A DNA stretch of 64,000 bases from a virus. Below are positions 36,785 to 58,868 of this stretch, piece after piece (within the stretch, counting starts at the first letter, position 1; each line of letters begins with the position of its first letter). The stretch spans positions 62,001 to 126,000 of the IMG/VR virus record IMGVR_UViG_3300042505_000752, one strand, 5' to 3'. Position numbers and translations under genes: made by a program. The notes under the pieces were generated by a model. That model had not been told where the DNA came from. It searched no databases and saw nothing but the letters and a program-made list of their open reading frames with translations.

Positions 36785-36813
36785 ATTATAGCAGGGTTAT
36801 GTAGATTACACAA
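36785..36813 (-). promoter_or_regulatory. promoter for the gene at 36750
   Basis: -35 TTGTGT, 17-bp spacer, -10 TATAAT. The spacer and flanks form a hairpin (GCAGGGTT/AACCCTGC, 36791-36819), so it is one of the terminator-promoter composites. Confidence 0.75.
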
Positions 36814-36831
36814 CCCTGCTACTTAGATTTA

Positions 36832-37527
36832 TCAGATTATTTGTTCTGCTCGCTCTTTCATTTTATCTAGAGCGTCTTCAAAGAAGTTGTAAAACTTCTC
36901 ATAACCGTCATCGTCATCAAGAATATCGCCCGATGGTGATGGCTCTTCGCATTCGTCAAACAAGACCCAGCCATTAGTGACGACGATATGACCGACATAT
37001 CCCATTCCAGTTTCGCTGTACGAAACACGGAAAACTAAATGAGGATACATCTCAGAGATTTTGACTAGGAAGCCGTTTGAGAATGGACTCCAAGCAGTCT
37101 GGTAGTAAAACTCCAACTGTCCACTTGGCGTAGCACTTCCTATGGGTGCGTTTGTAATTTCTGTATCGTAGTCGCCCCACTTAGTTCCCCAGTTGCTATT
37201 TGCCCAGTCGTACCAGTTGCTATAACCAGTCTCGGCTAGAGACTTCTGCCCAGCCTCATACTTCTCCACAGTGTCCTTGACTAGGTGGTCGTACCATTCC
37301 TGAGTCATCTTGCCATCGTCCAGCATGACCTTCCAATTTGGGTGAGGTTCAGGGGATGTTGGGGTTGGTGACTGCGTGCCATCTAGAGCACTAGGCATTG
37401 GGACTAGTGAGGCAATTTTGACAATTCGGTTGCCATCCTTATCGGTAGATTGGATATCGTTCCAAAAACGAGATAGTAGGGCATTGTCGCCCTGAACAAT
37501 CATAGTATTTTCGCAATGGTTAGGCAT
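36832..37527 (-). CDS. Api92-like/DUF1281 ferredoxin-fold protein
   Basis: 231 residues. Begins MPNHCENTMIVQG, the hallmark of Api92-like phage proteins, and contains NWGTKWGDYDTEI and TAWSPFSNGFLVKISEMYPHLVFRVSYSETGMGYVG, the conserved core of the YubB ferredoxin-like fold. Function of the family is not established. Own strong promoter (TTGACA-17-TATACT). Confidence 0.85.
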   Translation of the reverse strand: MPNHCENTMIVQGDNALLSRFWNDIQSTDKDGNRIVKIASLVPMPSALDGTQSPTPTSPEPHPNWKVMLDDGKMTQEWYDHLVKDTVEKYEAGQKSLAETGYSNWYDWANSNWGTKWGDYDTEITNAPIGSATPSGQLEFYYQTAWSPFSNGFLVKISEMYPHLVFRVSYSETGMGYVGHIVVTNGWVLFDECEEPSPSGDILDDDDGYEKFYNFFEDALDKMKERAEQII

Positions 37528-37559
37528 TGTGTGTCCTTTCGGTAGTAGTTGATTGTATA

Positions 37560-37588
37560 AGTATACACGGTATTTTGTGTAATGTCAA
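37560..37588 (-). promoter_or_regulatory. strong promoter for the Api92-like gene
   Basis: Consensus -35 TTGACA, 17-bp spacer with TTACAC, -10 TATACT; leader ACTACTACCGAAAGGA before ATG 37527. Confidence 0.85.
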
Positions 37589-37881
37589 CACGCAGAGTTA
37601 ATAAAATCCTGAGCGAGGACACTAAAATCTTTATTGTCGTGCTTGAAAAATCTTTCCCAATCGCTATCGCCACAAGCAAGCAATACAGCAAGCCCTGCTA
37701 GAGCAACGGGAAGCGAGTCATATGTTTCGGTGTAATCGTTGGCAACGAAGTCTGTCCACCAAAGCGAATACTTGCCATCGTTCTCGTGGAGTTCTATGCC
37801 GATATGGTACTTGTCCACGATGAATGAGTAGAGGGAAATACCGTTCTCATTGTCTGTGCTGAAATCTTTGAAAATCTTCAT
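37585..37881 (-). CDS. unknown small protein
   Basis: 98 residues. Alternating beta-type segments with many aromatics (YSLWWTDFVANDYTETYDSLPVALAGLAVLLAC). The start overlaps the upstream stop (ATGA), so it is co-translated with the 103-aa protein. No family recognised. Confidence 0.65.
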   Translation of the reverse strand: MKIFKDFSTDNENGISLYSFIVDKYHIGIELHENDGKYSLWWTDFVANDYTETYDSLPVALAGLAVLLACGDSDWERFFKHDNKDFSVLAQDFINSAC

Positions 37882-38189
37882 TTGTAGTTTCTCCTTAGTG
37901 AGTTAGTACGGCTTTTTGCGTCCATTGCTTCTTTGCCCCACAGACTGTGGAGTGTGTAATGTTGGATAAGTAACCCAACAGCCTTCCAGATATCCTCTGC
38001 TGTCCATTCACTGTCGTCGCCCATGTCAGGGTTATCAAAGTCAATGTCGTAGATAAATCCATCTAAAGCAACTTCAGGAGTGCTGAGAAGCGTGTAGTAG
38101 TGCTCGTCAATAATCTCAGCGAGTTCGTGAATTGCCCGACTTTCGTTGGCAAGTTCTTCCATCTCTGCGTGCTGTTCCCATGAAATCAT
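37878..38189 (-). CDS. unknown acidic helical protein
   Basis: 103 residues, first of a two-gene unit with its own promoter. Acidic helices (EELANESRAIHELAEIIDEHYYTLL, SEWTAEDIWKAVGLLIQHYTLHSLWGKEA). Unknown function. Confidence 0.65.
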   Translation of the reverse strand: MISWEQHAEMEELANESRAIHELAEIIDEHYYTLLSTPEVALDGFIYDIDFDNPDMGDDSEWTAEDIWKAVGLLIQHYTLHSLWGKEAMDAKSRTNSLRRNYK

Positions 38190-38221
38190 TACTGTGTCCT
38201 TTCGTAGTAGGTATAGGTGTA

Positions 38222-38250
38222 AGTATACACGCTGAGAAGCAATAAAGCAA
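38222..38250 (-). promoter_or_regulatory. promoter for the 38189 gene
   Basis: -35 TTGCTT, 17-bp spacer, -10 TATACT; leader ACCTACTACGAAAGGA. Flanked by a TTTACACGCTG/CAGCGTGTA inverted repeat. Confidence 0.78.
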
Positions 38251-38275
38251 CCCAGCGTGTAAACTTTTTAAAAAA

Positions 38276-38740
38276 TCACCAAGATGATGAGTAGTTAAAC
38301 TCCCAGTCTTCGGGGAGTGTCAGTAACTTCCCAATAGCGTCGGCGGTATATTGGACATTGCCCATATACCACTCGTCGTATTCCGTGCCCCCAAAGAAAA
38401 AGCCCTCTTGGACTGGCAGGAGTTCGCTAGCGAGAGAGTTGTCAGCGAGAACCTTTTTACAAATGTCCACGAGTTCCGTTAGTTGGTCTCGTGATACATA
38501 GGAAGTCTGACAGTTGTCTAAACCGTCTTGACAGTTCTTGACGAACCAGCCGTGAACGGCATTAGCCTTTCGCCAGTAGGCAACCTTCACTTCAATAGAA
38601 GCAGATGGACAATCGTCGCTAACGAAATCGCCAATCTTGGAAAGTTCCATAAGTGACTGATAGAGAGCATTACTCTCAGGTGTGCTCCACTTCGTTCCCG
38701 AAGCGTATTTGCGTGCGTATAAAAATTGGTCAAGTCCCAT
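38276..38740 (-). CDS. conserved phage protein (MGLDxFLYARKY family)
   Basis: 154 residues. Starts MGLDQFLYARKY and contains VAYWRKANAVHGWFVKNCQDG and FFFGGTEYDEWY, patterns that recur in many unrelated phages; function is not known. Probably an early, host-interaction protein. Promoter with hairpin upstream. Confidence 0.8.
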   Translation of the reverse strand: MGLDQFLYARKYASGTKWSTPESNALYQSLMELSKIGDFVSDDCPSASIEVKVAYWRKANAVHGWFVKNCQDGLDNCQTSYVSRDQLTELVDICKKVLADNSLASELLPVQEGFFFGGTEYDEWYMGNVQYTADAIGKLLTLPEDWEFNYSSSW

Positions 38741-38775
38741 TGTTGTGTCCTTTGTTGGTAGTTGTGTGTGTAACC

Positions 38776-38804
38776 ATTATACAGTATCTGTAGGGGTTTC
38801 GCAA
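38776..38804 (-). promoter_or_regulatory. promoter for the 38740 gene, hairpin-fused
   Basis: -10 TATAAT with -35 TTGCGA at 17 bp; the -35 region lies inside a hairpin (TGTAGGGGTT-NNN-AACCCCTACA, about 38788-38813) that likely ends the upstream transcript. Confidence 0.65.
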
Positions 38805-38822
38805 CCCCTACAGACAGATTTA

Positions 38823-39134
38823 TCAGAGCGACCGAAAGTAATAGCCATCTGTTTCCCAAAAGTCGCCACCTTGGAATAGGTCATGGGCATACTTGGCGAA
38901 ATCAAAGTATCGCCAAACTCGCTCGTGAATGCCATCCATAAAGCAACTCTCGTAAGCATGGAACTCTCCGAACTCTTTATGCGAGCCGAAGTACCCATAA
39001 TAGGAGTCGGTATAGTCACTGATTTCGCCCTCTGCGTCCTCGGCAGAAATATGGTAGTTGAGGCAGAACTCAGTGAATGAATTAGCATCTAAGCCGTTGT
39101 CTTGGGCAATGCTTTCGTAAGTAATGGTGTCCAT
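38823..39134 (-). CDS. ArdA-like antirestriction protein, short
   Basis: 103 residues. SYYGYFGSHKEFGEFHAYESCFMDGIHERVWRYFDFAKYAHDLFQGGDFWET resembles the C-terminal half of ArdA DNA-mimic proteins (FxSxxEFA ... YFDYExYAxDL). Very acidic (over 20 Asp/Glu), consistent with DNA mimicry that blocks type I restriction enzymes. Shorter than full ArdA (about 165 aa), so possibly a minimal version. Confidence 0.7.
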   Translation of the reverse strand: MDTITYESIAQDNGLDANSFTEFCLNYHISAEDAEGEISDYTDSYYGYFGSHKEFGEFHAYESCFMDGIHERVWRYFDFAKYAHDLFQGGDFWETDGYYFRSL

Positions 39135-39162
39135 AGTAATCCCTTCGTAGTGGTGTTAGATA

Positions 39163-39191
39163 AGTATAGCAGGTCTGTGTAACAATTACAA
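39163..39191 (-). promoter_or_regulatory. promoter for the ArdA-like gene
   Basis: -35 TTGTAA, 17-bp spacer with TTACAC, -10 TATACT. Confidence 0.8.
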
Positions 39192-39212
39192 CCTTATTAT
39201 TAGATTTCTTTC

Positions 39213-39509
39213 TCAGAGCCGACCACCGTAGTCTCGCTCGTTGTAGTAGCGATTTTCCCACTGTGCTTGCTTTTCAGCATCAGAGATTTCGGTTTCCAAC
39301 TCTTCAAAGATTTTCTTCATTGCTCCAATGACGAGTGAGTGGATATCGGCAACGGTGCCGTGGTTTTTAATTCCGATACCGACATTCTGTGCTTCTCGCA
39401 CTTCGTCGTACCAATTGAAAAGTGCTTGCCACTCTCCGATATTGCGAGCGTCGTATTCATCAGCAATAAGTTGCTTGATGACTTCCGTAAAGTTAGTGGT
39501 GGTTTCCAT
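39213..39509 (-). CDS. unknown helical protein
   Basis: 98 residues; start after GGAAAAGGACAACT. Helical throughout (EVIKQLIADEYDARNIGEWQALFNWYDEVREA...AMKKIFEELETEISDAEKQAQWENRYYNERD). Two tandem promoters of the family lie upstream. Unknown function. Confidence 0.65.
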   Translation of the reverse strand: METTTNFTEVIKQLIADEYDARNIGEWQALFNWYDEVREAQNVGIGIKNHGTVADIHSLVIGAMKKIFEELETEISDAEKQAQWENRYYNERDYGGRL

Positions 39510-39544
39510 AGTTGTCCTTTTCCGTAGTAGTGGCTTACCAGATA

Positions 39545-39573
39545 AGTATAGCAGATATGTGTAACAATTACAA
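39545..39573 (-). promoter_or_regulatory. promoter for the 39509 gene
   Basis: -35 TTGTAA, 17-bp spacer with TTACAC, -10 TATACT. Confidence 0.8.
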
Positions 39574-39624
39574 CATCTAAATAGATATTTATTAGATTTT
39601 TTTTGCGCCGTAACTTATAGGACA

Positions 39625-39653
39625 AGTATAGCAGATGAGTGTAACAATTACAA
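39625..39653 (-). promoter_or_regulatory. second, upstream promoter for the 39509 gene
   Basis: Near-identical to the one 80 bases downstream (TTGTAA-17-TATACT, TTACAC in spacer), but no gene or leader consensus lies between them; perhaps the remnant of a lost gene cassette. Confidence 0.75.
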
Positions 39654-39670
39654 CCTATTTATAGATAAAG

Positions 39671-39691
39671 TTATCCACAGACTTATCCACA
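39671..39691. repeat. two perfect DnaA boxes
   Basis: TTATCCACA at 39671-39679 and 39683-39691, in the divergent region between 39509 and 39840. Confidence 0.75.
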
Positions 39692-39711
39692 GGCAAAAAA
39701 TAGGGGGTCAT

Positions 39712-39722
39712 CCGCCACCGTA
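39712..39722 (-). repeat. dispersed ACGGTGGCGGATGA repeat copy
   Basis: One copy of the polar 14-bp repeat, in a non-coding divergent region. Confidence 0.7.
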
Positions 39723-39779
39723 CGAAAAAGAGACACACAGTCCCGTGCCCCAAATCGGGGAGCGGGGCTATCAACCTTA

Positions 39780-39796
39780 TTGACAAATTCTGTCAA
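39780..39796. promoter_or_regulatory. operator-like palindrome TTGACA-N5-TGTCAA
   Basis: Perfect 6-bp inverted repeat between two inverted CGGGGCTA/TAGCCCCG motifs (39765-39816), 44 bases before the 39840 start; probably binds a regulator of the helicase-associated-domain gene. Confidence 0.5.
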
Positions 39797-39839
39797 TACT
39801 TGCAAGCATTAGCCCCGCAACCGAACTAATGTTCGTAGC

Positions 39840-40205
39840 ATGATCAACCAGAATAAGTGGACAACCCACATCACAGCACTCCGCTCATATGCGGAACGAA
39901 CAGGAACTACACGAGTGCCTCGGACTCATGTAGAAAATACAGAGACAGGTGAAGTACGACTCGGCGCTTGGGTGTCGTATGTTCGTCACCGCCAGCGCAA
40001 GGGACACTTGTCCGATACACAAATTCAGGAACTTTCGTCGCTCCCAAATTGGCACTACGAACCACTGCCCGCAGGACGGACAGGCGACACTGCTCGTGAC
40101 ACCATGATTCAAGCGAGGGCGGAAGATGGCGCACGAGTTCGTGAACTATCACAAGAGTTTGGTCTTACTCGCCAGCGGATTCATCAGATCATCTCATCTA
40201 AGTGA
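39840..40205 (+). CDS. helicase-associated-domain protein with helix-turn-helix
   Basis: 121 residues. First 75 residues (WTTHITALRSYAERTGTTRVPRTHVE...RLGAWVSYVRHRQRKGHLSDTQIQELSSLPNW) match the helicase-associated (HA) domain repeat seen in actinobacterial proteins; the end (ARVRELSQEFGLTRQRIHQIISS) is a sigma-region-4-like helix-turn-helix. Probably a DNA-binding regulator. Translationally coupled to the next gene (GTGA). Confidence 0.8.
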   Translation: MINQNKWTTHITALRSYAERTGTTRVPRTHVENTETGEVRLGAWVSYVRHRQRKGHLSDTQIQELSSLPNWHYEPLPAGRTGDTARDTMIQARAEDGARVRELSQEFGLTRQRIHQIISSK

Positions 40206-40486
40206 ACAAGATGAACGAGTCGTATGCCGAGTGGCAGAGAGAGTTTAGGAAGTCACAAACGATTCCTAAGAATGAGAAAGCGAAACCAAAAGGCTTCGTG
40301 CTTTTTGTTGCCATGATCTTTTACTCACTGATCGTGACTGTTGTCTTTTTCTTTGTTGTCAGCATTGCCCTACGCATTGCAGGGTGGTCAGACTTCCTGT
40401 CTGCTCGTCAAGTGTTCGGACTTTGTTTTGGCATCTCATCACTAAGAGGACTAGACAGAGTTTTCTACGGTAGTAATCCTTTTTAG
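40202..40486 (+). CDS. small membrane protein
   Basis: 94 residues from GTG overlapping the previous stop; a second in-frame ATG lies three codons on. Lys-rich N-terminus, then a hydrophobic segment (GFVLFVAMIFYSLIVTVVFFFVVSIALRIAGW). The C-terminal SARQVFGLCFGISSLRGLDRVFYG is weakly hydrophobic. Unknown function. Confidence 0.7.
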   Translation: MNKMNESYAEWQREFRKSQTIPKNEKAKPKGFVLFVAMIFYSLIVTVVFFFVVSIALRIAGWSDFLSARQVFGLCFGISSLRGLDRVFYGSNPF

Positions 40487-40493
40487 ATATAGC

Positions 40494-40528
40494 AAAGAGC
40501 GGTAGGTGATAAACACCTACCGCTCTTT
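40494..40528. terminator. bidirectional intrinsic terminator
   Basis: AAAGAGCGGTAGGTG, 5-base loop, CACCTACCGCTCTTTT: a perfect 15-bp stem, with A-run and T-run on the two sides. Sits between convergent genes 40486 (+) and 40573 (-). Confidence 0.95.
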
Positions 40529-40572
40529 TATGAGGCAGAGAGGAAAGGACAAGTAACCCTCTGCTAAGAAAG

Positions 40573-41922
40573 TCAGTCGTCTAAGTTTCGTTCTTTCCAA
40601 AATGACGAGTTCTTGATTTCACCAACAGCGTTAGCCTTGAGTCGCTTACCTTGCTTGACTTGTTTCAATGCCTTGATAGCACCTACAACATCATTAACTT
40701 GGTGAATACTGTGCTTAATAACAAGGTTCGCACACTCGTCAGTCAGGTTGGCAAAGTTATTGTCGCCCTTGCCATCAGTAACATAACCATCGCAAACCCA
40801 AATGAATGGTTCGCCTTGCTTACGCTTGGCTTGTGCGAAACGAATAGCAGGACCATCAACACCGTTACCGCCGTTGCCAGCAGGAACTTTCTCAACAACC
40901 TTGCCTCGTTCTGCCATTACCCAAACATTCGGGATTTCCTCAGAACCAGTTCGGTGAGAGTAACCAATGATTACGCAACCGGGCGCTTCCTCAATGATCT
41001 CCCACAAGTTTTCTGTTTCCAAACGCATTGAACCTGATTGGTCAATAAGAACAACACCGCCTCGTCCCTTGGCACGACGATCAAAAATGCGTCGTTCAGG
41101 GTCTGTCAACATTCGTCCAATGCGACGAGGGTTGCGACCAATGTTAGTAGCAACTCTTTTTCGTCCAAGGTTTCCGTCAACAGCACGAGGCTTTGGAAGT
41201 TCTAATTCAATAAGTCTAGCGAACGCACCAGCGCCTGATTTTGCAATGTTCTTGACATCAGGGATTTCCTCGTTACCAAACTCATCAGGAGTTCCATCGT
41301 TACTCTCAGGCTTTAGCAAACTTTCAAGAAGCCGTGCAATGGGAACAGTCAACTTGTTGAAACCTTGCGGTAGACCATTCTCATCCGCCACCGTGGAAGC
41401 AACAGCAGGTGTTTTTTTCCATATCTTGGCGAGTGCTTTTTGCAATTCTCGTGCTTGCTTCTCAAACTCAGGATTCGTTGTCTTGAGTCCTCGTAAGAAG
41501 TTTGCACCAGCCTTAGTGCCAGCGACAGCAGGAAGGAAACGAACAACTCCGTTCCAATCTCCGTTCTCGCCAATGATTTTTCCTGTCTGCGATTCAGAAC
41601 CGTCTGCTAGTGCGTCAATAGGGAAGCCCTGTTTTGCAACCAACATATTCACACGAAACTCCTCTGCCATCATAAGCAGATCGGTTTCAATTCCTAGTGC
41701 CAGCATTGCTTCAGGATTCGTTGGCGAAACCTTTGCGTGCATGAGTTCGTGAGCACGAACGACACGAGAAGTGTCGTCAGCACCGTACGGTACTCGCATT
41801 TTTGCCGCTCGCATTTCTGTCCATGCGTCGCCTCGCACGGGGTTGCCCTCTTGGACTTCCCACGCACGAGGCTCAATGTCACGCCTGTTGATAAATTCGG
41901 GCATTGCTTTCATGACTTGCAT
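40573..41922 (-). CDS. VWA-domain protein with N-terminal HExxH (CobT/metallopeptidase-like)
   Basis: 449 residues. N-terminal half holds RAHELMHAKVSP (H58, E59, H62), a gluzincin-type zinc motif as found in the putative VWA-metallopeptidase family. C-terminal half holds GGVVLIDQSGSM (about 285-297), a complete MIDAS motif, and later ADGYVTDG. The gene follows the MoxR-like ATPase one base after its stop; in this family the AAA+ protein (MoxR/CobS) and VWA protein (CobT-like) work as a chelatase or remodelling pair. The phage target is unknown. The dispersed repeat occurs inside this gene (41385-41395). Confidence 0.87.
   Translation of the reverse strand: MQVMKAMPEFINRRDIEPRAWEVQEGNPVRGDAWTEMRAAKMRVPYGADDTSRVVRAHELMHAKVSPTNPEAMLALGIETDLLMMAEEFRVNMLVAKQGFPIDALADGSESQTGKIIGENGDWNGVVRFLPAVAGTKAGANFLRGLKTTNPEFEKQARELQKALAKIWKKTPAVASTVADENGLPQGFNKLTVPIARLLESLLKPESNDGTPDEFGNEEIPDVKNIAKSGAGAFARLIELELPKPRAVDGNLGRKRVATNIGRNPRRIGRMLTDPERRIFDRRAKGRGGVVLIDQSGSMRLETENLWEIIEEAPGCVIIGYSHRTGSEEIPNVWVMAERGKVVEKVPAGNGGNGVDGPAIRFAQAKRKQGEPFIWVCDGYVTDGKGDNNFANLTDECANLVIKHSIHQVNDVVGAIKALKQVKQGKRLKANAVGEIKNSSFWKERNLDD
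41385..41395 (-). repeat. dispersed ACGGTGGCGGATGA repeat copy inside the VWA gene
   Basis: Copy of the polar repeat within coding sequence, same orientation as the intergenic ones. Confidence 0.65.
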
Positions 41923-41923
41923 A

Positions 41924-42643
41924 TCAAGAAACTCCGTTCACTAAGATTGCGTCTAATACGGACTGATAGTGCTTTCCGAAAGTAAGGCGTGCCGCCTTCT
42001 CCACAGAAACCGTTTTGCGTAGAGTGTCAAACGCCATGAATGCTCGGATAGAGAAACGCCTATCACGATCAGCGTCAGCCGAGGCGGCCGCCGCTCCTCG
42101 CAAGTCAGGCGAGAGCATTGTCAGAGCGTCAGGGTGGGGAGTGTTGATTCGCACAGCAACGGGAAAGCGGTCTTTGAGTGCTTGTGGCAACTCACGCATA
42201 TCCTCAATGTTGGTGGTCATGAACACCGAGAAACCTTTTTTCGGCTTCAAGATTCGTCCTGTCTCGGGGTGTTCCCAAGAGGCAGATTCCTCACTGTCAA
42301 ACATCGCAAGTAGTTGCGACATAACATCGCCTGACGCACGGTCAATTTCGTCAGCGACAACTCGTCCGCCGTTGATACCGTCGCCTTGCCACGCCTTGAT
42401 AACAGTGCCATCTTGCCACTTCCAAGTACCATCGCCTGATGGCTTGAAGTGACCAGTAACATCGGCGCTTGTCATATCCTCGTTACAGATAAGACGGTGA
42501 GCACCTGCCGAAACATTGCCAAATGTAAGACCAGCGAAAGTCTTGCCCGTTCCTGGCGGTCCGAACAGAATTAGTTTGTTGATTCCTGAGTCAAGAATGT
42601 CATTGACATCTTGCCAGCATTCGGGGAGATTAGTAGTAGTCAT
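41924..42643 (-). CDS. MoxR/CobS-type AAA+ ATPase
   Basis: 239 residues. Walker A GPPGTGKT (28-35), Walker B VVADEID (95-101), sensor 1 FMTTN (about 140) and an arginine-finger candidate in ALKDRFPV are present, with the MoxR helix-2 insert (DGTVIKAWQGDGINGG). The hexameric ATPase would act with the following VWA protein, which starts one base after its stop. Such MoxR/VWA pairs occur in several large phages; roles in remodelling host or virion complexes are suggested. Own TTGCAA-17-TATACT promoter. Confidence 0.9.
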   Translation of the reverse strand: MTTTNLPECWQDVNDILDSGINKLILFGPPGTGKTFAGLTFGNVSAGAHRLICNEDMTSADVTGHFKPSGDGTWKWQDGTVIKAWQGDGINGGRVVADEIDRASGDVMSQLLAMFDSEESASWEHPETGRILKPKKGFSVFMTTNIEDMRELPQALKDRFPVAVRINTPHPDALTMLSPDLRGAAAASADADRDRRFSIRAFMAFDTLRKTVSVEKAARLTFGKHYQSVLDAILVNGVS

Positions 42644-42684
42644 AGTTTGTCCTTTGCTAGTAGCGGGTTTTCCCGTGTTTGATA

Positions 42685-42713
42685 AGTATACACCTTGTGT
42701 GTAGAAATTGCAA
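42685..42713 (-). promoter_or_regulatory. promoter for the MoxR-VWA operon
   Basis: -35 TTGCAA, 17-bp spacer with CTACAC, -10 TATACT. TACAC-N5-GTGTA dyad within the spacer. Confidence 0.82.
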
Positions 42714-42751
42714 CTTTATTTCAGAAATTATTTGACATTTTTTTAGAATGT

Positions 42752-42779
42752 AGTGGCAGGGAGATTTCCCCCTGCCACT
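42752..42779. terminator. hairpin after the 42786 gene
   Basis: AGTGGCAGGG/CCCTGCCACT with an 8-base loop just beyond the minus-strand stop; no T-run on the minus strand, so termination strength is uncertain. Confidence 0.55.
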
Positions 42780-42785
42780 CACTCA

Positions 42786-43184
42786 TCAGGCGACCTGAGA
42801 GAGTCCTACGACTGCCTCAGTCTCGTTGGCGATTTCCGTAACTCGCACTTGGTCGTACTTAGTGACGGTAGTAATCGCCTCAGCGATATCGCTAGGGATA
42901 ACGCCCAACTCAACGGCGGACTTGAATTTCTTACCGTCCACTTCAAGTTTGGTAACTTGCTTGAGAACGATAGGCGAGACAAGTTCAGTCAATGCCTTCA
43001 AGTTGTACTTGGGTCGCTCACCATTAACGATGAGAACCTTTTGTCCGTCCACGACATTGAAGTTGAGTCCCTTTTCAGCGTAGGCAAGTTTCAAGTCTGC
43101 CTCTGCTTGGGCTTTTGCCTTTTCAGCATTTTCCAATGCTTGCTTGGCATTCAAGTAGTTGAGAGTGATTTGTGTGAGATTCAT
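42786..43184 (-). CDS. unknown protein with N-terminal coiled coil
   Basis: 132 residues. N-terminal Ala/Lys/Glu helix (LNAKQALENAEKAKAQAEADLKLAYAEKGL), then a beta/alpha domain (VVDGQKVLIVNGERPKYNLKALTELV). No family recognised. Own promoter and a terminator-like hairpin. Confidence 0.7.
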   Translation of the reverse strand: MNLTQITLNYLNAKQALENAEKAKAQAEADLKLAYAEKGLNFNVVDGQKVLIVNGERPKYNLKALTELVSPIVLKQVTKLEVDGKKFKSAVELGVIPSDIAEAITTVTKYDQVRVTEIANETEAVVGLSQVA

Positions 43185-43214
43185 AATTTGTCCCTTCAGT
43201 AGTGGTGTGTATTC

Positions 43215-43243
43215 ATTATACAGGTTGTGCGTAACAATTGCAA
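43215..43243 (-). promoter_or_regulatory. promoter for the 43184 gene
   Basis: -35 TTGCAA, 17-bp spacer, -10 TATAAT; family leader ACCACTACTGAAGGGA. Confidence 0.78.
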
Positions 43244-43262
43244 CCTTATTTCTAAATTATTT

Positions 43263-43481
43263 TCAGAATTCGTATTCGCCATCGGATACCCATGCGATTT
43301 CGCCATCTTGGAAACCTTGGCGGTAAAGTTTGCCAAGAACGATGGTCAAGCCGTTAGATGTAGTACCCAACTTGCCCGTGATGTACTTTTCTGCAAGAGC
43401 GTCAGTATCAAAAATTTTGTAATCAGTGGCAATATAATCGCCGTGCATTTCTCCATAAAGTACTGCTTGAAAGTTATTCAT
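43263..43481 (-). CDS. unknown small protein
   Basis: 72 residues: beta-rich (FQAVLYGEMHGDYIATDYKIFDTDALAEKYI...GLTIVLGKLYRQGFQDGEIAW). Own promoter. Unknown function. Confidence 0.7.
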   Translation of the reverse strand: MNNFQAVLYGEMHGDYIATDYKIFDTDALAEKYITGKLGTTSNGLTIVLGKLYRQGFQDGEIAWVSDGEYEF

Positions 43482-43517
43482 ATTGTGTCCTCTCGGTAGT
43501 AATTGCTTGCGGAGATA

Positions 43518-43546
43518 AGTATATCAGGTGGGTGTATGGATTACAA
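43518..43546 (-). promoter_or_regulatory. promoter for the 43481 gene
   Basis: -35 TTGTAA, 17-bp spacer with ATACAC, -10 TATACT. Confidence 0.78.
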
Positions 43547-43564
43547 CCTTATTACTTAGATTTA

Positions 43565-43630
43565 TCAGATATTTTTCAGAACCATAGATAATGTTCCGAG
43601 TAGGTATAGACCAATGAATAAGAGTCCCAT
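43565..43630 (-). CDS. 21-aa hydrophobic membrane micropeptide
   Basis: MGLLFIGLYLLGTLSMVLKNI, one transmembrane helix. It has a full family promoter (43660-43688), the leader ACCTACTACAGAAGGA and a correctly spaced ATG, so it is a real cassette rather than a chance frame. Could be a superinfection-exclusion or membrane-targeting peptide; unknown. Confidence 0.65.
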   Translation of the reverse strand: MGLLFIGLYLLGTLSMVLKNI

Positions 43631-43659
43631 AGTAATCCTTCTGTAGTAGGTGAAATATA

Positions 43660-52014: not shown

Positions 52015-52194
52015 TCAGTAGACCGCTCGCTCTCGGCGTTCCCACTCAATCGCATTGGCGACTGCCTTGGCAATCCCCTTGGCGGTTTGGCTATGAGTAC
52101 GACTGGCTCGTTCACCAATTCGCAACCCTCGCTCTAACCCGTACTGGCGGATTAGGTTTTCGTGGATCTCATCCCATAAGAATTTGTTATTCAT
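52015..52194 (-). CDS. member of the small paralogous family (EIxExxIRxYG)
   Basis: 59 residues from ATG 52194 after AAGGAGAAAATA. NNKFLWDEIHENLIRQYGLERGLRIGERASRTHSQTAKGIAKAVANAIEWERRERAVY; paralogue of the 49999 and 55214 genes. Ends 20 bases before the next promoter hairpin. Confidence 0.7.
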   Translation of the reverse strand: MNNKFLWDEIHENLIRQYGLERGLRIGERASRTHSQTAKGIAKAVANAIEWERRERAVY

Positions 52195-52233
52195 TATTTT
52201 CTCCTTAGTAGTGGTGACTTCCTGACAAATATA

Positions 52234-52262
52234 AGTATACACCCTAGGTGTAACGAATACTC
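52234..52262 (-). promoter_or_regulatory. promoter for the 52194 gene
   Basis: -10 TATACT, perfect TACACC-TAG-GGTGTA palindrome in the spacer, weak -35 GAGTAT. Confidence 0.65.
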
Positions 52263-52303
52263 ACTTTAGTAAGTGGTATCCGTCACACCCTGACGCTCGG
52301 CTA

Positions 52304-52468
52304 TCAGCCAATGTTCTTCAACTCGTGCCAGTTGATCCCAGCCACATTGATCCCACGGAGGCGTAACTCTGCCTCTGCGATCTTGGCTTGAACCGTATTG
52401 TAGTGACAAGGATTTACCATCCAGTGTTGAATTTTCTTGACTAGTTGCTGGTTTGTTTTGTTCTTCAT
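52304..52468 (-). CDS. 54-aa unknown protein
   Basis: ATG 52468 after GAGGGCAAATT. KNKTNQQLVKKIQHWMVNPCHYNTVQAKIAEAELRLRGINVAGINWHELKNIG, helical and basic. Own hairpin-type promoter. Unknown. Confidence 0.66.
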   Translation of the reverse strand: MKNKTNQQLVKKIQHWMVNPCHYNTVQAKIAEAELRLRGINVAGINWHELKNIG

Positions 52469-52504
52469 AATTTGCCCTCTCTAGTAGTTTTGCCTTACCT
52501 AGTA

Positions 52505-52533
52505 ATTATACACAAGGGGTGTGGCAGAGTTCC
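52505..52533 (-). promoter_or_regulatory. hairpin-type promoter for the 52468 gene
   Basis: -10 TATAAT, -35 position GGAACT; hairpin GTGTGGCGGAGGGAACTCTGCCACAC overlaps the -35 and spacer and ends the upstream transcript. Confidence 0.65.
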
Positions 52534-52558
52534 CTCCGCCACACCCTGACGCTTGGGA

Positions 52559-52774
52559 TCAGATCTCAGCCTCCCACATACGGCAGATCTCCTTGGTGAT
52601 ATGGAGACCCTGAACAAGTGCCAAGCCAATGGCTCGCTTTAGTTCGTTGGGCGTTGCCAAGGGGAGGTAGTTGTCAATGTCCTCCCAAGCCTTGAGACCA
52701 GCAAGGATTTCCTCGTAGGTCTTGCTGGCATAAGCCTTGTCATTACTAGTTGGGAACTTGGTTTCGGTATTCAT
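52559..52774 (-). CDS. unknown small helical protein
   Basis: 71 residues: TETKFPTSNDKAYASKTYEEILAGLKAWEDIDNYLPLATPNELKRAIGLALVQGLHITKEICRMWEAEI. Own promoter and hairpin. Unknown family. Confidence 0.7.
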   Translation of the reverse strand: MNTETKFPTSNDKAYASKTYEEILAGLKAWEDIDNYLPLATPNELKRAIGLALVQGLHITKEICRMWEAEI

Positions 52775-52813
52775 AATTTGTCCTCTCGGTAGTAGTTGCT
52801 TCCTTACTTAGTA

Positions 52814-52842
52814 ATTATACACAAGGGGTGTGGCAGAGTTTC
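52814..52842 (-). promoter_or_regulatory. hairpin-type promoter for the 52774 gene
   Basis: -10 TATAAT, -35 position GAAACT in the loop of GTGTGGCAGAGGAAACTCTGCCACAC. Confidence 0.68.
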
Positions 52843-52858
52843 CTCTGCCACACCTCAC

Positions 52859-53059
52859 TCACACCCCTTCGTATTCACGGGCATGAATTGTGTAGCGACC
52901 ACGGAGGTCTTGGGCGAACTCAACGAGCCAGTGCCCACAGTCATCAAAGGGATACTCACGAGTGACCTCAAAAGCGCCACAAGCCTTCCCATTGGTTACG
53001 ACAGCAGTGACGGTCACTGTGTCGGTTTCTAGATCAACGGAGTATGTCAAGTTATTCAT
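52859..53059 (-). CDS. unknown small protein
   Basis: 66 residues: NNLTYSVDLETDTVTVTAVVTNGKACGAFEVTREYPFDDCGHWLVEFAQDLRGRYTIHAREYEGV, beta-rich. Own promoter. It is the last gene before the origin-like region. Unknown. Confidence 0.7.
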   Translation of the reverse strand: MNNLTYSVDLETDTVTVTAVVTNGKACGAFEVTREYPFDDCGHWLVEFAQDLRGRYTIHAREYEGV

Positions 53060-53095
53060 ATGTCTCCTTTAGTAGTGGTTTTTCCTTACCTAGTA

Positions 53096-53124
53096 AGTAT
53101 ACACCTAGGGTGTAGCACTTACAC
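53096..53124 (-). promoter_or_regulatory. promoter for the 53059 gene
   Basis: -35 GTGTAA, 17-bp spacer with CTACAC, -10 TATACT; perfect TACACC-CTA-GGTGTA palindrome. Confidence 0.78.
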
Positions 53125-53398
53125 CCTTATTTGTGTTACAGAATGGTTACAGATTTATGACGGAAATGTAATGGAGAGCCAAAATGCCGATATGGGCAAT
53201 GTGTCACCATTACACCCTAGAACGCTCTCTAAGCGCCTGACCCCCCTCTCCGCCCCTAGCACCTATTCTTGAGCCTGAAACGGCTCAGAGACGATTTCCA
53301 CAGATTTATACACAGCCTCTGAGCAGGGGAAATGTGGCAAAACCCCAGCGTGAGGGCACTTTTTACATAACCCCTGCTAGTTGGCTTACACACGGTGG
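53125..53398. other. non-coding left flank of the origin-like region
   Basis: No gene seen. Contains a GAGCC-TGAAAC-GGCTC hairpin (about 53272-53287) and a DnaA-like box TTATACACA (53306-53314). Confidence 0.5.
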
Positions 53399-53737
53399 TT
53401 ATCCACAGAAGTGACCACTTACCACCAGATTTCACCAGTAGTTATCCACAGGGGTGTGTATAAAGTTGGGGATAAGGTTATCCACAGGATATCCACAGGG
53501 TGTGGATAAAGTAGTTGTACAGTACAAGTAAGTTATCCACAGGGTTGTGGATAAAGTTATCCACAGGGTGTGGATAAAGGTGTGGATAAAGTTTTCCACA
53601 GGGTGTGGATAAACCTGTGGAAAAGATAGTTGTAGTCTACAAGTAAGTTTTCCACAGGTTGTGGATAAAGTTGTGGATAAAGTAGTTGTAGTATACAAGT
53701 AAGTTATCAACAGGGCTGTGGATAAAGTTGTGGATAA
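53399..53737. other. candidate replication origin: 14 perfect DnaA boxes
   Basis: TTATCCACA on the + strand at 53399, 53442, 53478, 53533 and 53557; its complement TGTGGATAA at 53501, 53546, 53569, 53581, 53604, 53660, 53672, 53717 and 53729. Near matches include TGTGTATAA (53455), ATATCCACA (53489), TTTTCCACA (53592, 53648), TGTGGAAAA (53616) and TTATCAACA (53704). Chance expectation for this 9-mer is about 0.5 in the whole window. Three palindromes TTGTA-N3-TACAA (53515, 53630, 53686) are interleaved. Host DnaA binding is the simplest reading. Next to it, 53815-53880 is AT-rich and could unwind. Confidence 0.75.
53515..53698. repeat. three palindromic repeats TTGTA-N3-TACAA
   Basis: At 53515-53527, 53630-53642 and 53686-53698, each followed by GTAAGTT and a DnaA box. 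The conserved unit is about 26 bases (RTAGTTGTA...TACAAGTAAGTT). Confidence 0.8.
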
Positions 53738-53970
53738 CTTTTCGCTCTGTAAAAAATTCTCTTCCGCCACCGTCAAAGTTTTAGAAACGAGGGGGCGGGG
53801 CTAGTCCCCTACTAATAAGAAGTGAAAAATCTGAACTTATAAAAAAAGCATTAGCCCCGTTTGTTTTTTCAAGAAGCATTAGCCCCGTTTGACTTTTGAG
53901 TTTTCCACAGGTTTTTCCACAGGCTGTGGATAAAGGGGGTAGGGTTTAACCCCCACCCCCACTTGGTCAC
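53738..53970. other. right flank of the origin-like region
   Basis: No gene. Polar repeat (53764-53774), CGGGGCTA (53799), AT-rich stretch with two direct copies of GCATTAGCCCCGTTTG (about 53847 and 53876), one perfect DnaA box (53925-53933) and a G/C-rich stretch ending the 53971 gene. Confidence 0.55.
53764..53774 (-). repeat. dispersed GACGGTGGCGGAAGA repeat copy
   Basis: Polar repeat adjoining the DnaA-box array. Confidence 0.7.
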
Positions 53971-54201
53971 TCAGTAGAAATCGGCAGGGGCACAGAAGTG
54001 GTCGGCAACACTGCCCTGAATGACATACTCATGAAGTAGTTCGGCGTACTCATCAGACTCTAGGTACTCCGCACGAGTCATGCCCGTCTCAACATGAACC
54101 CAATTCTCATCAAACATTTCCTCAAACATTGTGGTATCGGGGTAGCGACTCGTGATGTACTCAAGGTCTGACTCGTAGTAGTTCATATTATATCGTGCCA
54201 T
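53971..54201 (-). CDS. unknown acidic protein
   Basis: 76 residues: ARYNMNYYESDLEYITSRYPDTTMFEEMFDENWVHVETGMTRAEYLESDEYAELLHEYVIQGSVADHF. Strongly acidic and Tyr-rich; possible DNA mimic. Own promoter. Unknown. Confidence 0.7.
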   Translation of the reverse strand: MARYNMNYYESDLEYITSRYPDTTMFEEMFDENWVHVETGMTRAEYLESDEYAELLHEYVIQGSVADHFCAPADFY

Positions 54202-54236
54202 TATTTTACTCCCTCTAGTAGTTCCTTACAAATACA

Positions 54237-54265
54237 AGTATAGCACGCTTGTGTAACTATTACAA
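54237..54265 (-). promoter_or_regulatory. promoter for the 54201 gene
   Basis: -35 TTGTAA, 17-bp spacer, -10 TATACT. Divergent from the promoter at 54312; GTGACAAAAGACAC (54289-54302) lies between. Confidence 0.78.
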
Positions 54266-54311
54266 CATTTATCAACAAATATCTTTGTGACAAAAGACAC
54301 GCCATACAATG

Positions 54312-54340
54312 GTGTAAACTCTACACCCCCGTGCTATACT
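54312..54340 (+). promoter_or_regulatory. promoter for the 54382 gene
   Basis: -35 GTGTAA, 17-bp spacer with CTACAC, -10 TATACT; leader ACTACTACAAAAGGGA. Confidence 0.76.
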
Positions 54341-54381
54341 TATGGAGTACGGAAAACCTACTACTACAAAAGGGAGACAGT

Positions 54382-54660
54382 ATGAAGTTCATGACCGAAA
54401 CGCTAGTGACAGACACGCTCTGCTACGAAGTAATTGCCGAGACAGCCAAGACGCTGACAATCAGGTCAATGGCACGAGGCGAGCAGGTGTACACCGATGG
54501 CGCACCATTGCCAGTAATCGGACTCCGAGCAATCTCTGACCCGCACGGGGACACCAAAGTGGTGAGACTCCGCAAGGACGGAACTTACCGCAAGGCTCAG
54601 GGGTACAACCCCCTACGGTTCACCGAGACCCCAATCTTCTACACGGACTACAAGTTCTGA
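54382..54660 (+). CDS. unknown protein
   Basis: 92 residues from ATG 54382 after AAAGGGAGACAGT. MTETLVTDTLCYEVIAETAKTLTIRSMARGEQVYTDGAPLPVIGLRAISDPHGDTKVVRLRKDGTYRKAQGY: beta-type with basic end; a pattern I have seen in small phage proteins of unknown function. Followed by a GGGGGC-GAAA-GCCCCC hairpin. Confidence 0.72.
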   Translation: MKFMTETLVTDTLCYEVIAETAKTLTIRSMARGEQVYTDGAPLPVIGLRAISDPHGDTKVVRLRKDGTYRKAQGYNPLRFTETPIFYTDYKF

Positions 54661-54670
54661 AAGATGGGCG

Positions 54671-54686
54671 GGGGGCGAAAGCCCCC
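54671..54686 (+). terminator. GC-rich hairpin after the 54382 gene
   Basis: GGGGGCGAAAGCCCCC, a 6-bp stem with a GAAA loop, no T-run. A DnaA box follows at 54714-54722. Confidence 0.55.
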
Positions 54687-54839
54687 ACTTGCCCACAGGG
54701 TTTTCCACAGGGGTGTGGATAACTTTGCGCGAAAAATCCGTGCGGGGCTAAGGGCTTGCCGACGCTCCCGCTAGCCCCGTTGCCTCAAAATCTGGCGGAC
54801 TCGCGATATGGACAGAACCCCGCAGGGCTTAGCGCCCCC

Positions 54840-55136
54840 TCAATCGGGGACGCTTGCCCATGCTTCAACTTCGGTACTGAACTCGCCAAACTCGGAGACA
54901 GTACGAACTTCGGTCAGGCTTATGGCTTGACGAACAGTAAAGCGACGCTCACCGTCCCAAGCGAAGCCGTTAGGGTCTTGCTCGGAAGTGACGAAGTAGC
55001 CCGTCTCGCCTACCATGTAGATATCCCCGTGAACTTGTGACGAGAACCATCGCATAGTGCTGTCCGAGAAAAAGTGGTAGCCAGCGTCTTTACTAGCCTC
55101 CACGAACTCGCTTAGTGTCATGGTTGAAATACTCAT
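54840..55136 (-). CDS. conserved small phage protein (DUF7447-like)
   Basis: 98 residues from ATG 55136 (SISTMTLSEFVEASKDAGYHFFSDSTMRWFSSQVHGDIYMVGETGYFVTSEQDPNG...ERRFTVRQA). The FFSxxTMRWFxS...YFVTSE...RRFTVR pattern is common in phages; activity unknown. Own promoter. Confidence 0.78.
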   Translation of the reverse strand: MSISTMTLSEFVEASKDAGYHFFSDSTMRWFSSQVHGDIYMVGETGYFVTSEQDPNGFAWDGERRFTVRQAISLTEVRTVSEFGEFSTEVEAWASVPD

Positions 55137-55164
55137 AGTTATCTCCTTAGTAGTTGATGGATAA

Positions 55165-55193
55165 ATTATACCGAGGGGGTGTGGCTTAGTTCC
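55165..55193 (-). promoter_or_regulatory. hairpin-type promoter for the 55136 gene
   Basis: -10 TATAAT, -35 position GGAACT in the loop of GGTGTGGCTTGGGGAACTAAGCCACACC. Confidence 0.65.
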
Positions 55194-55213
55194 CCAAGCC
55201 ACACCGAAGCCCC

Positions 55214-55381
55214 TCAGAACCGAGGTAGTTGGCTCAGGACATAATCCTCGGCACGGGTGATGTACTTAGCCGTAACAGCGCCTCGTGCTTTTCTATAAGC
55301 GAGGTCATAGATACGGTCAGCAACTTCAAAGCCATGCTTACGGATAAGAGCCTCGTAAAGTTCATTTTCTGAGAATGTCAT
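55214..55381 (-). CDS. member of the small paralogous family (LYEALIRKHG)
   Basis: 55 residues from ATG 55381 after AAGGAGAAAATA. TFSENELYEALIRKHGFEVADRIYDLAYRKARGAVTAKYITRAEDYVLSQLPRF; related to the 49999 and 52015 genes. Last minus-strand cassette before the LexA-box array. Confidence 0.7.
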   Translation of the reverse strand: MTFSENELYEALIRKHGFEVADRIYDLAYRKARGAVTAKYITRAEDYVLSQLPRF

Positions 55382-55412
55382 TATTTTCTCCTTAGTAGTG
55401 GTGACAGATATA

Positions 55413-55443
55413 AGTATACACCCGCCGAGTGTAGAAACTACAA
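55413..55443 (-). promoter_or_regulatory. promoter for the 55381 gene
   Basis: -10 TATACT and TTGTAG with a longer spacer (19) that still holds CTACAC; GTGTGTCTTTTGTCACAC (55451-55468) lies just upstream. Confidence 0.6.
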
Positions 55444-55476
55444 CCATACGGTGTGTCTTTTGTCACACTACCTAAC

Positions 55477-55642
55477 CGAACAGGTGTTCGCACGGAGACA
55501 CCGAACAAGTGTTCCCCGAACAAGTGTTCCCCGAACGGGTGTTCGTACCGAACGAATGTTCTCCGAACAAGTGTTCGCATTATAAAAATACGCACCGACG
55601 CATAAAAATACACCGAACAGATGTTCTACGAACAGGTGTTCG
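55477..55642. promoter_or_regulatory. array of eight LexA/SOS-type boxes (CGAAC-RNRY-GTTCN)
   Basis: Boxes at 55477, 55502, 55517, 55532, 55549, 55564, 55614 and 55629, each 14 bases. All eight have CGAAC, the RNRY centre and GTTC; four have the full CGAAC...GTTCG. Several are exactly 15 bases apart. The pattern matches LexA boxes of actinobacteria and Bacillus. The array lies between the minus-strand 55381 gene and the plus-strand SNF2 helicase, so host LexA (or a phage homologue) may control the helicase. Confidence 0.75.
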
Positions 55643-57637: not shown

Positions 57638-57746
57638 AATCGCCCCATCCGCCGTATCCATTTGATAAACTAGAGGGGCACAGAAAAGACTGCTACTTGC
57701 TATCGGCGTATGCGCCTGACCTTATCCACCGAACAACGGAGTAACA

Positions 57747-58304
57747 ATGAAAAAATCAACTGTAGCGAAGCATTATCTAATACCAATTTCTATCATCGCA
57801 AGTGCCATCATGTTCATCTCAAGTACATTTGGAAGTAATTCAAGTAACGCAACATCGGTCTCTATAACCCCAACAGAAACCTCAACAACTACTAGCGTTT
57901 TGGTAACAGCGCCACCCACCTTAGCCCCGTCAACTACGACGACAACGCTTCTTCCTCCGAACTGGACTCCACCGACATTGCCGTCTGATGTCCCATGCCA
58001 AGAGTGGACACGGACAGCACTTGATGCTGGCTGGCCATGGGAACTCTTGCCTGAACTACTCCGTGAAGTGTGGTCTGAGTCTCGTTGTCAGAATGTCATT
58101 GAGGGTCACCCACAATGGAATGGACATGACCGTGGACCTCTTCAAATCAACCAAGTTTGGCTTGACGACATTGAGGCAAAGTATGGGCACTGGGAAGTGG
58201 TCAATGATCCACGCTATAACTTTGCGTGGGCATGGGAGATGTATCGCTGGTACGAGGACCATGGCTACTGCGGTTTCAAGCCGTGGTCACGCCCGTGTAA
58301 GTGA
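57747..58304 (+). CDS. secreted lysozyme-like/transglycosylase protein A
   Basis: 185 residues, strong GGAG before ATG. N-terminal signal or anchor (LIPISIIASAIMFISSTF), Thr/Ser/Pro linker (35-75), then a lysozyme-like fold: LREVWSESRCQNV (catalytic Glu) and RGPLQINQVWLDDIEAKYG...YNFAWAWEMYRWYEDHGYCGFKPW. Such secreted muralytic proteins may locally open the wall during infection or act in superinfection exclusion. Paralogue of the following protein. No lipobox seen. Confidence 0.8.
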   Translation: MKKSTVAKHYLIPISIIASAIMFISSTFGSNSSNATSVSITPTETSTTTSVLVTAPPTLAPSTTTTTLLPPNWTPPTLPSDVPCQEWTRTALDAGWPWELLPELLREVWSESRCQNVIEGHPQWNGHDRGPLQINQVWLDDIEAKYGHWEVVNDPRYNFAWAWEMYRWYEDHGYCGFKPWSRPCK

Positions 58305-58311
58305 GGAGAAA

Positions 58312-58824
58312 ATGAACATATTTAACAAATGGATCATCGGAGTCACCCTCTCCTTCGCAGTCATCGGCGTTTCCTTATGCGGGACTGCGGACAACAAAGC
58401 GAGTGCTGAAAAAATAGTTCCAGCAACAGCACCGATTGACCTTTCGGGAGTGAATTGGACTGAACTCGCTCGTTTGATGTACGGAAGATGCGGGGAATAC
58501 CATGACCTCGCCATTGCAGTTGGCTGGAGTGAAGCGCAATGGAAGAAGTTGAGTTTCGTCATGTACCGCGAGTCCCGCTGTAACACGATGGCGTTCAACA
58601 AAACTGATCCAAACGGCGGAAGTCGTGGACTTATCCAAATCAACGGTTTCTGGTGTAAACCAAGCAAGTACAACAAATCTGGTTGGTTACAGGCGCAGGG
58701 GGTACTCAACACTTGCGAGGATCTGTTCATTCCCGAAGTAAACCTTCGTGCGGGGCTAGCGATGTGGAACTACAGCCAACAGCGAAACAAGTGCGGCTGG
58801 CAGCCATGGGCGACTCGTTGCTAA
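58312..58824 (+). CDS. secreted lysozyme-like/transglycosylase protein B
   Basis: 170 residues from ATG 58312 after GAGGAGAAA. Signal peptide (WIIGVTLSFAVIGVSLCGTADNKASA); lysozyme-like domain with SFVMYRESRCN (catalytic Glu), GGSRGLIQINGFWCK and NLRAGLAMWNYSQQ..CGWQPW. Six cysteines may form disulphides after export. It follows gene A by seven bases and is its paralogue. Confidence 0.83.
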   Translation: MNIFNKWIIGVTLSFAVIGVSLCGTADNKASAEKIVPATAPIDLSGVNWTELARLMYGRCGEYHDLAIAVGWSEAQWKKLSFVMYRESRCNTMAFNKTDPNGGSRGLIQINGFWCKPSKYNKSGWLQAQGVLNTCEDLFIPEVNLRAGLAMWNYSQQRNKCGWQPWATRC

Positions 58825-58839
58825 AGTTTCACGGAAGAG

Positions 58840-58868
58840 TTGCTTTTTCGTAGCGAAGTGTGTATAAT
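58840..58868 (+). promoter_or_regulatory. promoter for the 58899 gene
   Basis: -35 TTGCTT, 17-bp spacer, -10 TATAAT; leader ACTACTAACGAAGGGG. Confidence 0.82.

Follow-up and report, generated by a model that had tools for sequence, protein, structure and literature searches.

The window analysed here is a 64,000-bp stretch of viral DNA (bases 62,001-126,000 of the 128,966-bp IMG/VR virus record IMGVR_UViG_3300042505_000752). It carries an array of 37 related promoter sites on both strands between positions 36,785 and 55,443. The conserved determinant of these promoters is a TNACAC(CCC) box located 8 bp upstream of the -10 hexamer, beside a weakened or degenerate -35 hexamer. We tentatively interpret the sites as early promoters of the host sigma-A RNA polymerase at which, as at T4 middle promoters, an activator or a specificity factor would recognise the box. 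The evidence base was sequence throughout, and the records compared may be incomplete. The virus is probably a large myovirus-like phage with an actinobacterial host, since the Baseplate_J and WhiB domains present in its proteins fit a myovirus of actinobacteria. Its terminase is approximately 42% identical to the terminases of Gordonia phages GMA6 and ChisanaKitsune. Megablast against 50,697 phage records gave no match for the 36-60 kb part of the window, and this part thus has no direct nucleotide match to known phages.

The final set consists of 36 sites from a weight-matrix scan, after removal of shifted and isolated hits, and one site spotted by eye (38,222-38,250). With a matrix trained on seeds from the same window, the scan yielded 37 raw hits above the threshold; 50 dinucleotide-preserving shuffles averaged 0.76 hits and never exceeded 3. 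Stronger support came from a matrix-free test of the distance between ACAC and TANANT. Within 33-59 kb, a distance of 8 bp was found 27 times, while each other distance from 2 to 15 bp was found 0-7 times and shuffles gave 0.8; positions 1-33,000 of the window contained no case at 8 bp. A spacer of 17 bp was shared by 36 of the 37 sites; the one exception, 55,413-55,443, has 19 bp. With a TANNNT -10 element, a -35 element about 17 bp away, and a position 5' of genes, the array has the features of sigma-A/sigma-70 promoters. The bases between the promoter elements vary freely, and some sites are similar enough for mutual blastn alignment. Matches to the class I pattern described below also turned up in L001, L002, and other AT-rich viral contigs, but were discounted as chance hits. 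The initial annotation had proposed about 30 near-identical promoters over 36,785-58,868. The family itself stands, but its extent does not, as no site lies in 55.5-58.9 kb.

Two forms of the promoter were distinguished. The class I form is TTGTAA-TTN-TTACAC-N8-TATACT. The class II form, about one-third of the sites, is exemplified by GAAACT/GGAACT...CCACACCCC...TATAAT and sits within an RNA hairpin. The 17-bp spacer of the earlier description holds for all but one site, but that description did not separate the hairpin-embedded promoters. The TACAC-N3-6-GTGTA dyads that it called common were present in only 6 of the 37 sites and are secondary to the box; a TGTA-N5-TACA dyad formed with the -35 hexamer occurred in 19. 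The same promoter family continues beyond the window, with a divergent pair just to its right at about 126.8 kb of G000 (L051, position 1286 on the minus strand and 1326 on the plus strand). The leftward gene of this pair is conserved in the related phages G001 and G005.

The conservation of the box was followed in related phages. G001 shares 92-97% DNA identity with the window across most of the region, and G005 is more distant (37% identity for the VWA-like protein and 75% for the terminase). Further relatives are G002, G010, G011, and shorter contigs. ACAC-8 bp-TANANT was counted 27 times in the window, 24 times in G001, and 19 times in G005, compared to less than one in shuffles (0.6 for G005). 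The G005 promoters have the same kind of leader, and TGTNACACCCC precedes their -10 hexamer by the same distance as in the window. Their -35 hexamer is poorly conserved (mean 0.61 bit), and the flanks of the box that were not used for selection are conserved (TGT before and CCC after). The dyad is lost in G005, where the dyad centre differs from that of the window, while ACACCCC is kept. Since the same position recurs in a phage whose VWA-like and terminase proteins are so divergent, the sequence comparison indicates that the spacer element is under selection. The fixed position of CTACAC/TTACAC in the spacer, as initially annotated, was thereby confirmed. In the family members other than the window phage, G001, and G005, the box is absent or weak: G002 gave a weak signal (3 cases vs. 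0.9 in shuffles), and no ACAC distance spike was found in L030, a near-copy of G010. L022 has another repeated spacer motif, CTAGTAA, in front of its leaders (seen by eye only), which suggests phage-specific boxes. The class II core of the window, AACTCTGCCACACCCC, was found in G005 without a hairpin; the box is therefore probably older than the hairpin.

The sites are given below from -35 to -10, followed by the genes that they precede. Class I sites on the minus strand are 37,560-37,588 (variant TTGACA-TTACAC...TATACT; gene 36,832-37,527), 39,163-39,191 (gene 38,823-39,134, ArdA-like antirestriction), 39,545-39,573 (gene 39,213-39,509) with a tandem site upstream at 39,625-39,653, 42,685-42,713 (AAA, MoxR-like, 41,924-42,643 and VWA-like 40,573-41,922), 43,215-43,243 (gene 42,786-43,184), 43,518-43,546 (gene 43,263-43,481), 43,660-43,688 (43,565-43,630), 44,421-44,449 (gene 44,207-44,383), 44,830-44,858 (gene 44,513-44,791), 46,852-46,880 (gene 46,634-46,822), 48,674-48,702 (genes 48,125-48,640, 47,854-48,081, and 47,391-47,837), 48,915-48,943 (gene 48,712-48,879), 49,860-49,888 (gene 49,457-49,825), 51,458-51,486 (gene 51,075-51,428) with a tandem TTGACA site upstream at 51,544-51,572, 53,096-53,124 (gene 52,859-53,059), 54,237-54,265 (gene 53,971-54,201), and the site with the 19-bp spacer, 55,413-55,443 (gene 55,214-55,381). 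The 21-codon hydrophobic open reading frame (ORF) at 43,565-43,630 (minus strand) has a complete promoter and leader to itself and might encode a membrane micropeptide. Class I sites on the plus strand are 43,747-43,775 (gene 43,814-44,011), 44,905-44,933 (gene 44,965-45,297), 46,917-46,945 (gene 46,977-47,210), 49,935-49,963 (genes 49,999-50,181 and 50,183-50,383), 50,385-50,413 (TTGACA; genes 50,449-50,619 and 50,616-50,738), and 54,312-54,340 (gene 54,382-54,660).

The class II sites, all on the minus strand, are 36,785-36,813 (hairpin 36,791-36,819; gene 36,295-36,750), 38,222-38,250 (hairpin 38,228-38,259; genes 37,878-38,189 and 37,585-37,881), 38,776-38,804 (hairpin 38,785-38,816; gene 38,276-38,740), 46,081-46,109 (hairpin 46,090-46,123; genes 45,658-46,050 and 45,494-45,661), 46,584-46,612 (hairpin 46,592-46,629; gene 46,129-46,548), 49,407-49,435 (hairpin 49,420-49,447; gene 49,195-49,371), 51,025-51,053 (hairpin 51,034-51,069; gene 50,732-51,004), 51,967-51,995 (hairpin 51,977-52,008; ORF 51,828-51,932), 52,234-52,262 (45-nt hairpin 52,246-52,290; gene 52,015-52,194), 52,505-52,533 (hairpin 52,517-52,546; gene 52,304-52,468), 52,814-52,842 (hairpin 52,827-52,854; gene 52,559-52,774), and 55,165-55,193 (hairpin 55,179-55,204; gene 54,840-55,136).

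At these 12 sites, the promoter is embedded in the RNA hairpin that closes the preceding gene. The hairpins are strong (z ≤ -3.7) and usually lie within about 20 nt of the stop codon of the upstream gene. The -35 hexamer is located in the loop or the stem, and the spacer box largely coincides with the 3' arm, as in GGTGTGGCAGAG-GAAA-CTCTGCCACACC followed by CCTTGTG-TATAAT. In an alignment of seven window sites and six G001 sites, 94.9% of the pairings were retained, and both partners had changed in 6 of 13 pairs; none of 500 shuffles reached this. The orthologous hairpins w49437 of the window and g14798 of G001 differ by a T-A to G-C change. In most G-U pairs, the 5' arm supplies the G and the 3' arm the U. 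This pattern would be expected if the sequence of the 3' arm is fixed by its role as promoter DNA and the 5' arm adjusts to it at the RNA level. Strong hairpins are present at 24 of 37 gene 3' ends, and similar hairpins also close genes without a fused promoter.

A promoter lies directly upstream of 35 of the 44 genes, with 21-42 nt (median 36) between the end of the -10 hexamer and the start codon, which bears out the one-gene-one-promoter layout described initially. The shared ACTACTA...GAAAGGA leader was likewise recovered: it contains an extended Shine-Dalgarno sequence, and the pattern ACTACTA...Shine-Dalgarno...ATG had 79 matches (overlapping starts counted) compared to 0.8 in shuffles. 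Similar leaders are present in many relatives. The genes of the array are small and probably early genes of the phage, and the presence of the ArdA-like gene (38,823-39,134) suggests very early use. This arrangement suggests that the virus turns on many takeover genes jointly yet as separate units. The cultured Gordonia relatives GMA6 and ChisanaKitsune have packed long operons with neither the box nor the upstream element described next, and their leader counts are near background.

The upstream element is GTGAC-N4-G[A/T]CAC, and the search pattern also permitted A at the start of its right half. In the window it is located between divergent promoters, and in several relatives 5' of promoters. 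Copies between divergent promoters are GTGACAAACGACAC at 44,870-44,883 and GTGACAAATGACAC at 46,892-46,905 on the minus strand, and GTGACAAATGACAC at 49,910-49,923 and GTGACAAAAGACAC at 54,287-54,300 on the plus strand; GTGACCAATGTCAC at 48,966-48,979 and GTGACAAAAGACAC at 55,453-55,466 are on the minus strand. Distances from the end of the element to the -10 hexamer cluster at 23-24, 33-36, and 45-46 bp, which puts the centres at about -42.5, -53.5, and -64.5; two further elements are 26 bp away. A scoring promoter accompanied 31 of 34 elements vs. 4.9% of random positions, and the window site with the 19-bp spacer still keeps the distance of 34 bp. Exact matches in viral contigs had gaps to TTGACA of only 0, 1, or 11 bp, though 0-12 were allowed; many of these contigs are near-copies, and independent lineages are therefore few. 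Phasing to the -10 hexamer is the usual sign of an activator site, and by position the element is in activator-like helical phase with the promoters of a subset of sites. Besides the window (44,870-55,466), the phased element was observed in L020, L023, L025, L030, and L031, so that it occurs in two or more separate groups of phages. Part of its phage-specific 14-bp context is GACAC, the WhiA motif (PMC3781837), and by sequence it also resembles a CRP half site. Host CRP/GlxR was rejected as its reader: 257 Gb of bacterial and archaeal genomes contained one element-TTGACA match, located within a coding ORF, although this is less firm for palindromic variants. No CRP-type helix-turn-helix (HTH) was found above the cut-off in eight phage records.

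Two candidate regulators are encoded on the plus strand of the window. The first, at 39,840-40,205, is a 121-aa protein with an HA domain and a C-terminal sigma-4-like HTH (HA-HTH protein). Its gene is syntenic, adjoins the VWA gene, and is preceded by CGAACTAATGTTCG in G000, G001, and G005. Identity in relatives is mostly 33-42%, with a nearly invariant C-terminal helix SRQRVHQI. The protein matches phrog_532 (late transcriptional activator; E 7e-4), and its profile matches WhiG sigma weakly (E 0.04). One CGAAC-N4-GTTC site (LexA/SOS-box type) is located at 39,822-39,835, just 5' of this gene. The candidate co-regulator is a WhiB-like protein of 96 aa (31,477-31,767); most relatives encode it in syntenic position, with 54-99% identity. 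Of 11 related records searched, 8 contain two or three WhiB-like genes, and the three short fragments contain one or none. A presence/absence comparison for a clade-specific DNA-binding protein restricted to box-containing phages gave no clear HTH candidate. An immunity-repressor system was also discarded, as a search of six related records for tyrosine integrases found none (serine integrases not searched).

According to the reading that we tentatively favour, about 37 host sigma-A-type promoters with TATACT/TATAAT -10 hexamers and 17-bp spacing would each give rise to a short transcript of its own that carries the constant leader and the extended Shine-Dalgarno sequence. The use of the host sigma-A polymerase is suggested by the -10 hexamer, the spacing, and the short constant leader, on established promoter knowledge. 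A sequence-specific factor, most likely phage-encoded, would read the box, compensate for the poor -35 hexamer, and steer the host polymerase to all array promoters together, like the T4 MotA box. The hairpins may end or protect the upstream mRNA, and neighbouring genes would thereby stay separate units. The regulon proposed in the initial annotation is thus upheld in its fixed shared cis-element, and its spacer-binding regulator is plausible only. That the box is conserved while the -35 hexamer decays argues for an activator or specificity factor rather than a repressor. Several observations weigh against this reading. The phage comparison identified no box-binding protein, and related phages that are devoid of the box also encode WhiB and the HA-HTH protein. 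A -35 hexamer (TTGTAA) can still be recognised in class I sites, which also retain a dyad; this would suit a dimeric repressor as well. The box is nearer to the -10 hexamer than the MotA box is. The hairpins lack a clear U-tract, and termination by them is therefore not assured. Finally, the product of the ArdA-like gene would be needed immediately, when no phage activator has yet been produced. This weakens a strict need for a newly made activator and keeps close the possible, though somewhat unlikely, alternative that these are strong early promoters used by unassisted host RNA polymerase, as in T4 early transcription; our confidence is restrained accordingly. The box would then tune the spacer or bind a host factor, and the likeness of the sites would come partly from cassette copying. 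The near-consensus -10 hexamers, the 17-bp spacing, the immediate-early use implied by the ArdA-like gene, and the mutual blastn alignment of some sites agree with it, and extra conserved positions are also known in T4 early promoters (PMC2988021). It does not account well for a box that occupies the same place in G005 but is weak or absent in other family members, for a -35 hexamer that is degenerate where the box is strongest, or for the freely varying bases between the elements.

A phage repressor acting at the -35/spacer dyad KTGTAA-N3-TTACAM to shut off or time the array is unlikely. The dyad overlapping the -35 hexamer in 19 sites would suit such an operator, and repression was called plausible for the cluster K elements with a 15-bp inverted repeat (PMC11373665). 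However, G005 has lost the dyad and kept ACACCCC with a degenerate -35, class II sites are devoid of the dyad, the symmetry centre differs between phages, and the integrase result above offers no support; the repressor suggested initially is accordingly the less likely kind of regulator. The other regulator suggested there, WhiB as sole reader of the box, fits the multiple WhiB-like genes, but direct binding of WhiB to the spacer box is very improbable. Known Wbl proteins bind sigma-A region 4 and contact DNA at or upstream of -35 (PMC10245118), and the WhiB orthologue is as conserved in G010 (71%) and G002 (78%), which have no clear box, as in box-containing G005 (70%). WhiB might instead participate in a second, independently evolved sigma appropriation, which we consider quite doubtful: in the role of AsiA, it would grip sigma-A region 4, and the role of MotA, reading the box or the upstream element, would fall to a DNA-binding protein of the phage, perhaps the HA-HTH protein. 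If true, this would move the host polymerase from -35 promoters to the phage array. That the elements act as RNA only, in translation and stability, with an incidental promoter-like pattern, is hardly credible. The conserved leader and the conserved, covarying hairpins would agree with an RNA role; the box and the -10 hexamer are conserved also without a hairpin, at a fixed spacing without obvious RNA meaning, and the upstream element is phased to the -10 hexamer.

Other repeats were observed in this part of the genome. A 14-bp repeat, ACGGTGGYGGAWGA, stoperator-like in style, has 9-10 copies in the window (33,877-53,773), all on the minus strand. It is conserved across the whole phage family and is nearly unidirectional within each genome, with 6-11 copies per record in L094, L095, L100, L101, L043, L044, L041, and L042; it was absent from the examined part of GMA6. 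Eight clustered CGAAC-N4-GTTC sites are located at 55,477-55,642 before an SNF2-like gene, and such sites are also present in G001 and G005. An origin-like cluster of 14 perfect TTATCCACA (DnaA-box) sequences occupies about 340 bp (53,399-53,737), with further copies at 39.7, 44.2, 45.3, 53.9, and 54.7 kb. Genes for helicase-loader-like and replication-initiation O-like proteins (33,369-34,305, minus strand) are located about 19 kb from this cluster.

Phage early genes are usually organised in operons, with which the present array contrasts. About 37 natural versions of a single promoter are available in it, together with hairpin-promoter fusions and a phased element of activator-like type, and the box recurs in a second phage. 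The array makes the role of actinophage WhiB proteins and of elements of the type found in cluster K mycobacteriophages directly testable in a laboratory host. Dispersed short repeats are known from actinophage genomes as the 17-bp palindromes of cluster O and the stoperators of cluster A (PMC4351075, PMC9283540). However, most cluster O palindromes are not at promoters, and stoperators are asymmetric repressor-bound sites of temperate phages, whereas the sites described here are promoters and the integrase search above gave no sign of a temperate phage.

T4 middle promoters share with the array a good -10 hexamer, a weak -35 hexamer, and a phage-specific box that replaces or adjoins the -35 (PMC6755090, PMC2988021). 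In T4, the MotA box takes the place of the -35, with its centre at -30 (PMC6755090). Replacement of the -35 with retention of the -10 is seen in G005 and partly in class I of the window, which keeps a weakened -35. The T4 box lies 12 ± 1 bp 5' of the -10 hexamer, approximately from -35 to -26, while ACAC here ends 8 bp upstream and ACACCCC covers approximately -24 to -18. Among the proteins scanned, which did not include every gene product, there was no match to MotA or AsiA, and WhiB and the HA-HTH protein are possible analogues at most. Because of the different box position and because these proteins were not found, we did not assign the sites to T4-type middle promoters. T4 early promoters are likewise many individual sigma-70 promoters before early genes with extra conserved positions (PMC2988021); they are rich in all host elements (UP, -35, TGn, -10), whereas the -35 here is weakened. 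In the SPO1 host-takeover module, small early genes are also clustered, with strong promoters and ribosome sites (PMC6873191), but they form operons, and the description consulted mentions neither a shared spacer box nor a hairpin-promoter fusion.

Mycobacteriophage promoters have been called poorly defined (PMC11373665). The start-associated sequences (SAS) and extended start-associated sequences (ESAS) of cluster K phages TM4, Adephagia, and Pixie are, like the sites here, repeated intergenic sigma-A-like promoters before unrelated genes; an inverted repeat spans the -35/spacer region, and a conserved sequence directly precedes the start codon (PMC3203893, PMC11373665). Their inverted repeat is 15-17 bp long, compared by description rather than base by base to the 15-bp dyad of 19 sites here; their 13-bp SAS is located 3-9 bp before the start codon, and the array has a conserved leader, the SAS consensus itself not having been searched. 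Adephagia has 7 ESAS vs. 37 sites here, and the descriptions consulted mention no hairpin-fused form such as class II. The conserved part here is the ACAC box and not the dyad, unlike the cluster K ESAS, in a comparison that did not extend to the individual bases of the SAS consensus. Among known systems, the cluster K ESAS/SAS come closest in anatomy; the logic is nearest to that of T4 middle promoters, and the role to that of T4 early promoters and the SPO1 module.

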